DNA from: Planctomycetota bacterium
GTDB lineage: Bacteria; Planctomycetota; Planctomycetia; Gemmatales; Gemmataceae
NCBI GenBank assembly: GCA_021413475.1
Contig: JAIOQJ010000512.1
Location: 1 to 34,385, forward strand
Reading direction: 5' to 3'
DNA length: 34,385 bases
Shown: one piece after another, positions 18,448-24,874 of the stretch
Position numbering within the stretch: position 1 is the stretch's first letter
How the letters are laid out: every line of letters begins with the position of its first letter
Program-made: the position numbers and the translations under genes
The notes under the pieces: model-generated
Seen by the model: only the letters and a program-made list of their open reading frames with translations
The model's database searches: none
What the model was told of the DNA's origin: nothing

Positions 18448-18450
<3 letters not shown>
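18357..18450. repeat. REPIN-like nested inverted repeat between convergent genes (35-nt arms, one mismatch)
   Basis: Arms 18357-18391 and 18416-18450 pair 34/35; each contains CATCACGC-TCC-GCGTGATG (left copy has T at 18370). Fills the 18355-18448 gap and includes the hemL stop codon. Confidence 0.85.
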
Positions 18451-19743
<1,293 letters not shown>

Positions 19744-19959
19744 GATGCTCGCGGGGTTGACGGAGGAAATTCGGTTCGGCGTCGTTGGGACAGTTTAGGC
19801 GAAGTCGCGAACGAAGCCAGCGGCATCCCCGACGCGAATTTGTGAGTTTCGTTTGCATAACCGGAGAATCTGGTCTAGATTTCATCGAGCAAACGTTTGT
19901 ACCGGTTTTGGCGATACAGACGGGGGCAGATGTTCGTGTCTCGCAACGACTCCAAACGC

Positions 19960-20078
19960 CTTTCATCCTCGAAAGGGCAAAACCGTCGAAAGACGGTGAC
20001 GCAAAGCTATGGGCCTTCGGCGTTTACACCCCTGACGAATCTGTGCCGATGGTTGCCAGGTTGCCGAAGGGATTGGCA
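19960..20078 (+). ncRNA. Cyclic-di-GMP-I (GEMM-I) riboswitch aptamer candidate
   Basis: GAAAGGGCAAAACC-GTC-GAAA-GAC-GG-TGACGCAAAGC-TAT-GGGCCT ... GGTTGCCAGGTTGCCGAAGG matches the GEMM-I core: GGGCAAACC, GAAA-capped P2 hairpin CCGTC-GAAA-GACGG (19983-19996), GACGCAAAGC (19998-20007), GG(C/G)CCU receptor strand, GGUUxCCGAxGG 3' element. Lies about 190 bp upstream of a start codon. Confidence 0.85.
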
Positions 20079-20161
20079 GGTGAAACACCCTTCCATCCCC
20101 GAAGCGGTTCCTTTGAGGAACGCGCCTCGCCGGAGTCGCTGGACCGAGTTAAACCGGTTAC

Positions 20162-20184
20162 GCGGGCATCTGCTTCGCTTTTTT
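20162..20184 (+). terminator. Possible expression-platform terminator (GCGGGC-ATCT-GCTTCGC then TTTTTT)
   Basis: Short imperfect stem with GU pairs and one bulge, followed by T6, between the aptamer and the start codon at 20268. Confidence 0.4.
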
Positions 20185-20267
20185 CACTTTCTCTCGTTTT
20201 TTCCCTCAAGAAATGCCGATTTCTATTTCAGACGAGCGTCGCGGCGTTTCTTCATGGAGGGAATCAA

Positions 20268-21398
20268 ATGCGTCAGGCCTTTATCATCGCGTGGCTGCTC
20301 GCCACCTCGGCCGGCGTTCTGGCTCAATCCAATCCTCAAGAACCCAAGGCATTGCCCCCCGCGGTGAATAACGCTCCCGCGGTATCGGGTGCGGCGTTGA
20401 TTCGTTTTGATGCCACCCATCTCGAAATCAAACGGGTCGACAATCGCCATCAGCTCTGGGCGGGCAAGCAATTCCTGAAAGACTTCGGTCCCTTCGAGCG
20501 CGAGGCCTCGGAAGCCTTGCGGCTGGTGCGGGAGCTTGGCTTTACCCAGTACGGAACAATTGCGGGTTCGACTCCCGTCTTCGAATACTGGCTCGCCGAC
20601 GACGCGGCACTCAAAGGACGCTTGGCTGCTAAGAATGTGATCCTCTTCAATTCGAAGGCACTCAAAGTGGAACAGATCACCGGGGCCTGGATCATCCGCG
20701 ACGATCGGCAATTGCTTTACAACTTCGGCAACCAGCGTGAGGCGGCCCTGCAAGCTCATGCGACTATCCTCAAGCTCGGTTTCAATCAGCTCGGTTTCGT
20801 CGGCACGCCGGTCCCCGTCATGACGTATCTGACCACTGATGCGTATTCGCATCCGATGGACATTTCGAGCTCGCAACCCGATTCGCGCGAGCTCATCGCC
20901 AAAGTCGCCGAGCAGGGTCTGGTTTTGCCGGAGGTTGGCTACGTCGGCAGCCGGACACCGATCGAACTTCGCAAACTCGATCTAAACCGCCAGCAAAGTG
21001 AATGGGTTCTGGTCCATGGCAAGGACGTGATCGCACGTTTCGGCCCGAACGGCGCGCAAGCACGCGAAGCCTTACGCATGTTGCAAGACGCGCGTGTCAC
21101 GGAGCTTTGTCTGGTCGGAAAAAGTAGCTTCCCCATCTTTTTGAGCAACGGTCTCGCCCCACGCGGTCCGACCCTCGGCTTCAACAACCAGCGCCTGCAA
21201 CCAGCCCAGATGAGATTGCAAATGATCAACAAGGTCGCTTGCATCACCGATGGGGCACGGATCCTGTTCGAGTTCGGCGACAATCAGTCTGAGGCCGAGC
21301 TGATCTTGAAGGTGCTGAAGCACTTTCAATTCGACCAGTTTAATGCCCTCGGCGATGTCACGCGCGGGGGGATTCGATTTTTCACGAAATCGAAGTGA
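20268..21398 (+). CDS. Secreted four-repeat hypothetical protein (376 aa)
   Basis: GGAGG RBS then ATG 20268; signal peptide MRQAFIIAWLLATSAGVLAQ; four degenerate repeats around 'LLxxFGxxxxEAxxAxxxLxxLGFxQxGxVG'. ORF-track start 19785 is rejected because it spans the riboswitch. Confidence 0.85.
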   Translation: MRQAFIIAWLLATSAGVLAQSNPQEPKALPPAVNNAPAVSGAALIRFDATHLEIKRVDNRHQLWAGKQFLKDFGPFEREASEALRLVRELGFTQYGTIAGSTPVFEYWLADDAALKGRLAAKNVILFNSKALKVEQITGAWIIRDDRQLLYNFGNQREAALQAHATILKLGFNQLGFVGTPVPVMTYLTTDAYSHPMDISSSQPDSRELIAKVAEQGLVLPEVGYVGSRTPIELRKLDLNRQQSEWVLVHGKDVIARFGPNGAQAREALRMLQDARVTELCLVGKSSFPIFLSNGLAPRGPTLGFNNQRLQPAQMRLQMINKVACITDGARILFEFGDNQSEAELILKVLKHFQFDQFNALGDVTRGGIRFFTKSK

Positions 21399-21448: not shown

Positions 21449-24400
21449 TCATTCCTCTCGCAGCGCCGGAATCAATGGCGCACGCAATGTGGTGAACACC
21501 GCGAGACAGACCACCGATAGACCGACGACGAACACCATGCCGAGCAATAGCCCCAACCGCACCCAGGGGATCTGTCCCCCCGATGCGAGATGCGGCGTGA
21601 CTGCGGCCAGGGCGGCGAAGATGCCCGCGCCAAGGCCGAGCACGAGCAGCAAGCCATTCTCCGCCAGCACCATGCCATTGAGCGCCCGCACGCGGTAGCC
21701 GAGGGCACGCAGCAACGCAAGCTCGGCCCGGCGTTCCCAGATGCTGCGGAGCAAGACGACGGCCAAACCCAGAACGCCGAGCAGCAGGCCGAAGCCGCCG
21801 AGGAGTTGAAACGTCGTCAGATAGGTGTTCTGCACGGCCAGGTAGGCGGCAACTCGATCGCGGGTGGGCGTCGTCTCGAAGCCGTAGTTCGCCAGCCCGC
21901 CGGTCAAGGCACGGACGAGCTCTTTCTCCTGGTCGGACTTCACGTCGATCAGAAAGAAACTGAAGCCTTCCGTGCGCGGGAAATGTTGGCGGAAGGCCGC
22001 ATCGGGGATCAGGACTTCACTCTGAAACACGCTGTCCTTGAGCAGGGCGACGATCTTCAGCTTGATCGGCCGATTCTCTTCGTCCGGCACTTCGAACACA
22101 TCGCCAAGACCTTTCTTGAGCATCCACATGGCGGTGTTTTGCTCGACGATACACGGAATCGGTTCATTGGGCGGCGCGTTTTCGAGGAGCTTCCAATAAT
22201 TGGTCTCCTTCGTGGGCTTTTCAGCCAAGCTGGCGCTAAATGAGAATCCACCGCGTTCGATGATCGACGCCGGCACGCCGAAGATCCGCGGCCGGCTAGC
22301 CTGGTAGAGATTCAGGCAACTGGCATCGTCGCCTCCTTTAACCCGAAATCGATAGATCTTGGCGGCTTCGATCGCGGCCATCGCTTCTTTCAATCGTTCG
22401 CTTCGTTCGATTGCCGTCAGGGAAAGATCTTGCAACCGCTTCTGCAATCCTGTCCGGAAATGATCCTGGCCATCTTCATCAGTCAGGTCGAAATCGATCG
22501 GCGTCGCGGACTCCGCGAGGAGCGGGAAGCCGCCGCTGCCGCCCGATTTGCTCAGGAAATCCTTATCCGGCTCGCGGCGAAACGACTCGACCGCGACGAG
22601 CAGAAACGACGCCGAGGCGAGAAGTGCGGCCGTCAGCAGACTCCGCGTGGGATTGCGAACGGCATTCCGCGAACCGAGCCGCGCCAGGGCGGGCAAGCCG
22701 TGCCCGTGCAGCAGCGCGTGATGCCCCTTCTTCATCCAGGCCCAGAGCAGCGTGAGCCCAGCCGTTAGAAGCAAAGCACCCGAGCCGAAGAAGGCCCCCG
22801 CTTGCGGTTCGCCCGGCGGCATTGAAGGGGCCGCCAGCGCCAGGGCGATCGCGCAGAGGATTGAAGTCAACGCGATGCGGAGCGGCCAGGGGGATGGCTT
22901 CATCACCTTCCGAGGATCGACCGTGGGCGTCATGTCCCCCTTGAGAAGTTGGGCCGGCGCTACGGTACTGAGAGTCCGCAGGGCCCAGAGGATCGCCAAT
23001 CCGCTCATGACGATGGACGCGACGAAGCCGATACCCAGGCTCATGGGCGTGACGTGCATTGAGAGGTACGACTCAACGCCAGGCGTCGGCCAGAGTGCGA
23101 CCAGCAAGCGAATCATGGCATCCGCGTAGGCCAAGGCTCCGATCAGGCCGATGAAAGACCCCAGACTGGCGAGGAGCAAGCCTTCGATGAGCAGCAACCA
23201 ACGGACGGTCCGCAAGGGAAAGCCGCTGGCACGAAGCAAGCCAATCTCGCGCGCCCGGCGGTCGAGATTGAGGCGGAAGAGCAATCCCACGAGCATGAGC
23301 GCGGCCACGATCAGGAAGAAACTGAACGACAGAAAGAGCATGCCAAAATCGGTGCTCCCCTTGCCCGCGGCGAGCATCCGCTCGCGGATCGGCTGGAAGA
23401 CCAGGCCGGCACTTTCGGGGTCGATGTTTTTGAGCAAACGCTCCGCGAATTCGGCCTGCGTCTGCTCCGGCGTTTGACCGGCCTTGGGAGCAATCCGAAT
23501 CGAGGTAACGTCGCCGAAACGCGTTCCCCAGAGTTTTTGACCATCCTCCAGGCGAATGTACGCCTTCGGCGTCGTTCGATAATCGTTCCAGAACTTCTCG
23601 TCCGTCTTCTTGTTGATCTTGTCGAGATCAATGTCAAACGGCGGCCGCCAGGAACTGATCTCCGCTTGATCCGTGATGCCGGGGAAGTCGGGTGTCAGGT
23701 TGCGGTCGTTGGCAACGCCGTCCAGCGGGATCATGCCCCGGTACGTGAACGTGTGTTCCGACTGCTTCAACTCGCCTTCGACTTCGGGGTTGTAATACTT
23801 CAGCGTGATCTTGGCGTCCGTCGCCTGGGGGTCGATCTTAATGGGTGATAGCTTCCAATCAACCAGAACGATCTCGTCGGGTTTCAGTTCCTTGCCGTCG
23901 GGAGAGAACGGTCCAAGCGGGGCCTTTTTGGATGTGTCCAACGCAGCCACGATCGAGTAAGGAATCGACTTCTTACCGTACTGGATTTCGTTGGCGAGAT
24001 AAGTATAGGACTTGGCGTAATCCAGCCCCATTTCCCGAGCCGTTTTTTCGACAGCAGCGATGATGGACGGCTCCAGAATTAGTCGGGTACTTTCGACGCT
24101 GACGTAGGCCTTCCGAAATGCGGGCACAAAGACCTTCAAGCTCAAATCGTCGAGCGACAGTCGAGTTTTGAGTTCCGATTGTAACGATTGCGCGGTTTGT
24201 CCGGTCCCCATCAGGACATTGACCTTGCCCGGTTGCTCGATTTCCTGTTGCAAACGGGTGATCGGAATAAACATATTAGATGGTAGAGTTGGTGAAATCG
24301 ATAAACTGAGCGCGTTGGCGGGGTCGGTATCAGATAAGATGGCTTTGACGGTCAGGCGGATATTACTGGTCGTATCGGAAACGCTTCTTCGAGACAAAAA

Positions 24401-24874
24401 CGAGGAGCGCGGTAACGACGAAGCCTTCTGTACCCCAACGAAGATGACATCGCCGACTTTTGCATTCAGTGTTTTGGCCAAGTTGGAGGAGAGGATCGCA
24501 ATCGGCTCGTCCCCCTCGAGTTCCGGTTGATCGATCCCAAAGTGGGAATTGATTCCCCAGACGGTGACTTTGCCGGCACGCCGATCCCCCTCCGGCGTGC
24601 CGGCATGGACGGTCCCTTGCAGCAGGAGTGCTCCGCGATTTTTGCCGGGTAGTTCCTCGGCGAGTTGGGCACGAAGAAAACGCGGTCCGATCAGGACCGT
24701 GTCGATGTTGCCCAGTTGACGTTCGGTGCGGTCGCGCAAGCTCCCCCGGAGCGAATCGCCGACAAGCAACGCCCCGGTGAGTACGGCTGCCCCGACGGCG
24801 GCCCCCAACAAGACGGCAAGATTGCCGCGAGCGTGAAAGCGAAGATTGCGAACGACAAATTCTGTCTTGTTCAT
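21449..24874 (-). CDS. Large FtsX-like (MacB/LolCE-type) ABC transporter permease, two permease halves (1141 aa)
   Basis: N-terminal TM plus 'LVGDSLRGSL'; 'RLNLDRRAREIGLLRASGFPLRTVRWLLLIEGLLLASLGSFIGLIGALAYA' and 'LLRSIWERRAELALLRALGYRVRALNGMVLAENGLLLVLGLGAGIFAALAAV'. Confidence 0.88.
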   Translation of the reverse strand: MNKTEFVVRNLRFHARGNLAVLLGAAVGAAVLTGALLVGDSLRGSLRDRTERQLGNIDTVLIGPRFLRAQLAEELPGKNRGALLLQGTVHAGTPEGDRRAGKVTVWGINSHFGIDQPELEGDEPIAILSSNLAKTLNAKVGDVIFVGVQKASSLPRSSFLSRRSVSDTTSNIRLTVKAILSDTDPANALSLSISPTLPSNMFIPITRLQQEIEQPGKVNVLMGTGQTAQSLQSELKTRLSLDDLSLKVFVPAFRKAYVSVESTRLILEPSIIAAVEKTAREMGLDYAKSYTYLANEIQYGKKSIPYSIVAALDTSKKAPLGPFSPDGKELKPDEIVLVDWKLSPIKIDPQATDAKITLKYYNPEVEGELKQSEHTFTYRGMIPLDGVANDRNLTPDFPGITDQAEISSWRPPFDIDLDKINKKTDEKFWNDYRTTPKAYIRLEDGQKLWGTRFGDVTSIRIAPKAGQTPEQTQAEFAERLLKNIDPESAGLVFQPIRERMLAAGKGSTDFGMLFLSFSFFLIVAALMLVGLLFRLNLDRRAREIGLLRASGFPLRTVRWLLLIEGLLLASLGSFIGLIGALAYADAMIRLLVALWPTPGVESYLSMHVTPMSLGIGFVASIVMSGLAILWALRTLSTVAPAQLLKGDMTPTVDPRKVMKPSPWPLRIALTSILCAIALALAAPSMPPGEPQAGAFFGSGALLLTAGLTLLWAWMKKGHHALLHGHGLPALARLGSRNAVRNPTRSLLTAALLASASFLLVAVESFRREPDKDFLSKSGGSGGFPLLAESATPIDFDLTDEDGQDHFRTGLQKRLQDLSLTAIERSERLKEAMAAIEAAKIYRFRVKGGDDASCLNLYQASRPRIFGVPASIIERGGFSFSASLAEKPTKETNYWKLLENAPPNEPIPCIVEQNTAMWMLKKGLGDVFEVPDEENRPIKLKIVALLKDSVFQSEVLIPDAAFRQHFPRTEGFSFFLIDVKSDQEKELVRALTGGLANYGFETTPTRDRVAAYLAVQNTYLTTFQLLGGFGLLLGVLGLAVVLLRSIWERRAELALLRALGYRVRALNGMVLAENGLLLVLGLGAGIFAALAAVTPHLASGGQIPWVRLGLLLGMVFVVGLSVVCLAVFTTLRAPLIPALREE

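Follow-up and report, generated by a model that had tools for sequence, protein, structure and literature searches.

An extended, single-copy RNA built around a class I cyclic di-GMP aptamer precedes the gene of a secreted-looking repeat protein in a Gemmataceae genome

Does the class I cyclic di-GMP (c-di-GMP) aptamer that stands in front of the gene of a secreted-looking repeat protein in a planctomycete control that gene, and, if so, through which ligand and by which part of the transcript? The locus lies in a window of 34,385 nucleotides, by which we mean the whole stretch of DNA that was analysed (contig JAIOQJ010000512.1 of assembly GCA_021413475.1, forward strand), taken from a Gemmataceae MAG that is 93.6% complete and 6.6% contaminated. 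An initial annotation, made from the letters of the window, had proposed a c-di-GMP-I riboswitch controlling a secreted repeat protein.

The stretch is a genuine c-di-GMP-I class RNA. The initial annotation had named a comparison with Rfam RF01051 (c-di-GMP-I) as its check, and the covariance score of that model against positions 19966 to 20069 of the forward strand is 69.8 bits, above the gathering cut-off of 35; a cmscan of the whole window also places RF03167 (c-di-GMP-I-GGC) at 19967 to 20069 of the same strand (67.2 bits, cut-off 59, E 5.6e-14). Both scores are far above chance, and no other Rfam family was found near the aptamer, the only further match being a sub-threshold snoRNA on the opposite strand. 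All GEMM-I motifs quoted in the initial annotation are present on the forward strand between 19959 and 20070. Within the aptamer, which is composed of P1, P2 and P3, the hairpin CCGTCGAAAGACGG (19983 to 19996) forms P2 with its GAAA tetraloop and is followed by the motif GACGCAAAGC (19998 to 20007). The P3 arm (20006 to 20060) includes the motif GGGCCT (20011 to 20016) and is extended in the window, where the alignment and the consensus fold pair CCTTCGGC (20014 to 20021) with GCCGATGG (20045 to 20052). The motif GGTTGCCGAAGG (20059 to 20070) overlaps GCCGAAGG (20063 to 20070), which includes the P1 3' strand. Compensatory changes are seen in relatives for both P2 and P3; in an alignment of 41 sequences (alignment A5), 16 of the 31 consensus pairs show them. 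The c-di-GMP contacts in Vc2 are G20, A47 and C92 (PMC4744006), and their equivalents here are G at 19976, as the initial annotation had read it, A at 20003 and C at 20064, the last within the P1 3' strand; all three are canonical.

The aptamer makes up only the 5' half of a longer RNA (about 230 nt), which we call type A and which extends from about 19954 to 20184 of the forward strand (ends approximate), as delimited by alignments A5 and A6, consensus folds and a hold-out covariance model. Common to the 41 sequences of the window's group in A5 are the 5' flank CCTTTC-NTCCTCGAAAGGGC, which is near-invariant, and a conserved P4 behind P1; conservation in the group runs on past P4 through P6 to a terminal ...GCUUUUU. 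In the window the flank reads CCTTTC-ATCCTCG-AAAGGGC (19959 to 19978), leading into the P1 5' strand and J1/2. The P4 hairpin (20069 to 20099; GGGATTGG with CCATCCC, inner GGTG/CACC) appears in both the consensus and the window folds, and the GGG with which it begins is shared with the 3' strand of P1. The P6 hairpin (20142 to 20158; GACCG...CGGTT) shows compensatory changes at all five of its pairs in relatives. The RNA closes with a terminator-like 3' end (20100 to 20184, fold of -27.8 kcal/mol), in which CGAAGCGG (20100 to 20107) pairs with CTGCTTCG (20170 to 20177) ahead of a U-tract at 20179 to 20184. The equivalent helix in relatives is CRGGG:CYYYG, closing before GCUUUUU; the window's helix departs from this family form, with non-standard pairs in the model match that are replaced by CGAAGCGG:CTGCTTCG.

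In the training alignment of the 3' half, 94.9% of cells are paired, compared with at most 54.6% when the partners are slid; since this structure is the alignment's own consensus, the hold-out test is the stronger evidence. For this test a covariance model was made for the 3' half from 15 relatives, with the window excluded; it matched the window at 20064 to 20183 (56.4 bits, E 1.8e-12) and nowhere else in it. The same model recovered each of the 23 further held-out group members put to it (E 0.01 or better), and among 37 control c-di-GMP-I loci it gave no match better than E 0.26. No sigma-70-like promoter was found in 19740 to 20300, a terminator scan of the same interval gave one weak match, no more than in shuffles, and the leader as a whole is not more stable than its shuffles. 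Two alternative pairings were considered and set aside. In the ligand-free minimum-energy fold the P1 3' strand GCCGAAGG pairs with CCTTCGGC of P3, a candidate switch helix that is strong in folding calculations; it is not conserved in relatives and was therefore left out as evidence. An antiterminator between the P4 3' strand and the 5' arm of the terminator fits several relatives by eye, although its strands hardly vary and its fit to the window is poor. The conserved 3' half is absent from Rfam, and the extended variant was not found in the literature searched, which is a weak negative, most subscription papers lying outside the coverage. The aptamer adds one member to a class already known; the RNA in which it is embedded, extended, single-copy and restricted to the order, is the variant that these searches did not find.

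The gene behind this RNA (20268 to 21398, forward strand) starts with ATG at 20268, six bases after GGAGGG (SD, 20256 to 20261), and encodes a 376-residue protein, P0001, of a family without a name. The secreted repeat protein of the initial annotation is consistent with an N-terminus (MRQAFIIAWLLATSAGVLA-QS) that resembles a signal peptide by eye and with an AlphaFold2 model (mean pLDDT 76) predicting four beta-beta-beta-alpha-beta-beta repeats. The closest relatives share 27-40% identity; the aligned family members gave no Pfam, NCBIfam or convincing PDB sequence match, and a PDB fold search with the model returned nothing at E below 0.001. A single-sequence search of the genome contigs gave no match, and relatives there were recovered with a close subset of the alignment. 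The divergent upstream neighbour (18448 to 19743, reverse strand) is a class-III aminotransferase (Pfam PF00202), which we infer to be HemL-like, and the convergent downstream neighbour (21449 to 24874, reverse strand) is a MacB/FtsX-type permease by Pfam, so that the repeat-protein gene forms a single-gene unit.

We found c-di-GMP-I RNAs in 59 of 98 genomes of the family, with one to seven copies each; a single one was recognised in the window's own genome. Of the 398 genomes of the class, 42 contain the exact 19-base flank pattern, each of them a single time: 41 of 98 from the same family and one of seven from the same order, with none elsewhere in the class. Because the aptamer is the front half of an RNA of about 230 nt that is present once per genome across the family, control of the secreted protein is likely but unproven. 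Control of the repeat-protein gene in cis is nevertheless the best reading of the locus, and on balance a probable one. It is favoured by the finding that five type A loci, from five genera, are followed on their own strand by a gene of the repeat-protein family (leaders of 199 nt in the window and 195, 184, 451 and 411 nt elsewhere) while the window's two flanking genes were not found at the other four. It is favoured also by the nearest gene lying on the same strand at 29 of 43 loci, and by terminator-like signals 30-250 nt from the aptamer at 18 of 45 group loci as opposed to five of 40 in a control stretch. Against control in cis count the roughly 32 neighbour groups at the 43 loci and the 14 loci whose closest gene runs on the other strand (neighbour groups and strands come from a crude coding-potential gene finder, so all these counts are approximate), the presence of the RNA in front of the gene in only five of the 53 genomes, among the 98, that have the repeat-protein family, and, in the window itself, the departure of the terminator helix from the family form, the lack of excess leader stability and the equal access to the SD in free and bound-like constrained folds. 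What the initial annotation had described stands as to aptamer, G20 and downstream protein; the control that it named stays a proposal, against which speak the varied neighbours, the opposite-strand cases and the small number of loci at which the repeat-protein family follows. It had noted neither the GGC label given by cmscan nor the reach of the conserved RNA to about 20184.

In the c-di-GMP-I class the ligand stabilises P1. The P1 3' strand (20065 to 20071) and the P4 5' strand (from 20069) of the window share the GGG at 20069 to 20071, which makes P1 and P4 mutually exclusive. Under control in cis, a leader RNA of about 230 nt would carry the aptamer as its 5' half and a terminator-like hairpin with U-tract 83 nt before the repeat-protein gene. 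C-di-GMP, presumably made by the sole canonical diguanylate cyclase found, would hold P1 closed; this would open P4 and alter transcription stop at 20179 to 20184. The binding of the ligand and the exchange of strands are proposals; for the class, P1 formation with ligand has been mentioned (PMC4744006). By analogy with Vc1 (PMC4744006), the ligand may favour read-through, that is, act as an ON signal.

The distribution that counts against control in cis speaks for a serious rival, a free-standing c-di-GMP-sensing sRNA (about 230 nt) that would be transcribed from a promoter of its own, end at its own terminator and act on other targets, the repeat-protein gene being merely its neighbour; we regard this as a real but less than even possibility. 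One exact-pattern copy in each of 42 genomes, the many neighbour groups with opposite-strand genes among them, and a conserved structure that extends to the U-tract end all agree with it, as does another GEMM-I RNA of the same family, type B, whose neighbours are mostly convergent and which likewise ends in a terminator, some 60 nt beyond its aptamer. Targets are constant for other c-di-GMP-I classes of these genomes: the 93 next genes include 21 Flp pilins, 13 subtilases and 13 trypsin-like proteases. The recurrence of the repeat-protein family as next gene in five genera, the excess of same-strand over opposite-strand nearest genes (29 to 14) and the absence of a U-tract from many members of the Gemmata-like lineages speak against a free-standing RNA. 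A broader version, in which the window RNA would be one of two single-copy, order-restricted, free-standing c-di-GMP-sensing sRNAs of Gemmatales, trans-acting effectors with their own terminators, is likewise tentative.

Control at the level of translation, with c-di-GMP opening a hairpin that hides the ribosome-binding site, is improbable. Such a hairpin is predicted at 20201 to 20265 of the forward strand, where TTCCCTC (20201 to 20207) pairs with GAGGGAA so that GGAGGG is paired in an 18-bp stem (z -2.06, with six of 200 shuffles as stable), and a similar stem precedes the gene in genome G076 (z -2.6). The stem is weaker or absent in G002, G050 and G040, however, its position is beyond the point at which the conserved RNA ends, and no pairing links it to the aptamer; in constrained folding, SD access is unchanged between the free and bound-like states.

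As to the ligand, the canonical G20, A47 and C92 equivalents predict c-di-GMP rather than cGAMP. The mark of GEMM-Ib (cGAMP) RNAs, A20, is absent from the window, 19976 being G. The top cmscan label, RF03167, is misleading here, because its consensus GACGC[G]AAGC has G where the cmscan alignment puts the window's A at 20003. The GGC of the family name we take to refer to a G at this equivalent of Vc2 A47, the consensus letter itself coming from the alignment; this diagnostic nucleotide is absent from the window, though the RF03167 cut-off is passed. Annotation pipelines that keep only the best match of a clan may mislabel RNAs such as that at 19967 to 20069 as RF03167. One GGDEF protein was found in the source genome, a response-regulator GGDEF with GGEEF, along with three HD-GYP and three PilZ proteins and no EAL matches. 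Together with G20, the canonical c-di-GMP type of this sole GGDEF protein agrees with the preference for c-di-GMP over cGAMP expressed in the initial annotation. Another ligand, be it 3',3'-cGAMP or what GGC variants bind, is very unlikely: cmscan does rank RF03167 first and relatives with position-20 variants exist, but the window has G20 and A47, RF01051 gives the higher score in bits (69.8 vs 67.2), and the sole GGDEF protein found keeps the Asp of canonical cyclases (...LLPGGD) for which Hypr cGAMP enzymes carry Ser (PMC6456294), no GGDEF of that type having been found in the 93.6%-complete MAG.

The type A RNA shares with Vc2 and Vc1 of Vibrio cholerae (RF01051) the aptamer fold, the GAAA tetraloop and G20/A47/C92, and with Vc1, which precedes gbpA (PMC4744006), a place in the 200-odd-nt leader of a gene for a secreted protein. 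It differs from them in the conserved 5' flank and the 3' half (P4, P6, U-tract end), which lie outside the Rfam model, and it belongs to a class in which J1/2 is one base shorter. RF03167 differs at position 47 in spite of the passed cut-off (67.2 vs 59), and the GEMM-Ib or 3',3'-cGAMP riboswitches of Geobacter have the same scaffold with A20 in place of the window's G20, which occurs in a genome where no Hypr-type GGDEF was found. Bc1 of the Bacillus cereus group (PMC11218506) likewise has a class I aptamer followed by a long, terminator-bearing expression platform; the window RNA differs in phylum and sequence, in a neighbour gene that is not constant, and in P4 and P6, which are conserved together and were seen in a single order of planctomycetes.

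Other c-di-GMP-I RNAs were observed in the family. The commonest next gene is a Flp/Tad pilin (21 of 93; L011, L013, L018, L019, L020, L036, L068, L070, L072 and others), which suggests that these RNAs control adhesive pili there. Type B is a second conserved group (24 hits, including L030, L071, L075, L097, L108, L109, L116 and L122) marked by the tail GAAGGGATGGACGGGACCCGTAAGTATGCTTGG; some 60 nt beyond its aptamer stands a strong intrinsic terminator (by score, in 14 of 20). As it mostly faces convergent, varying genes, type B looks like a free-standing c-di-GMP-sensing sRNA, even more so than type A. Of 398 genomes, 48 have its tail, almost all of them in one copy. In many genomes (L241-L245, L247, L248 and L251-L254) the tail and the aptamer 3' half are kept and the 5' half (P2, GACGCAAAG) was not found upstream, while L246 and L249 retain the 5' half; in some lineages the aptamer of type B may have disappeared or been exchanged for something else. 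Position 20, the ligand-selecting site of the class, is A at nine Gemmataceae loci (L080, L081, L087, L088, L113, L120, L123, L131, L156) and C at five (L015, L130, L154, L158, L175), many of these RNAs preceding subtilases. The canonical Asp is present in all 25 GGDEF domains recovered from eleven genomes (that of the window and those of ten relatives), so that there is no obvious Hypr cGAMP enzyme. In RNAs before trypsin-like proteases (L105, L126, L132, L135, L136, L139, L141, L144, L157, L159, L160, L166, L173) the equivalent of the G21-C46 pair is swapped to C-G (AAGCTAAACC with GGCGGAAAGCC), and in most of these RNAs about ten bases separate the end of the aptamer from the start codon. 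Rfam mir-1343 passes its cut-off narrowly at L050 (2863-2944) and L229 (2164-2245), both planctomycete; these matches are surely false, mir-1343 being an animal microRNA family.

To judge by the literature searched, c-di-GMP signalling has received little attention in planctomycetes, and the extended, single-copy c-di-GMP-I RNA with its conserved 3' half is a concrete candidate for an RNA effector, in a genome that shows one diguanylate cyclase. Were the RNA free-standing, a class I c-di-GMP aptamer would be used as an sRNA, of which we know of no description. If instead control in cis holds, it would show what a nearly minimal c-di-GMP circuit acts on, and there would be a first handle on an orphan family of secreted proteins.
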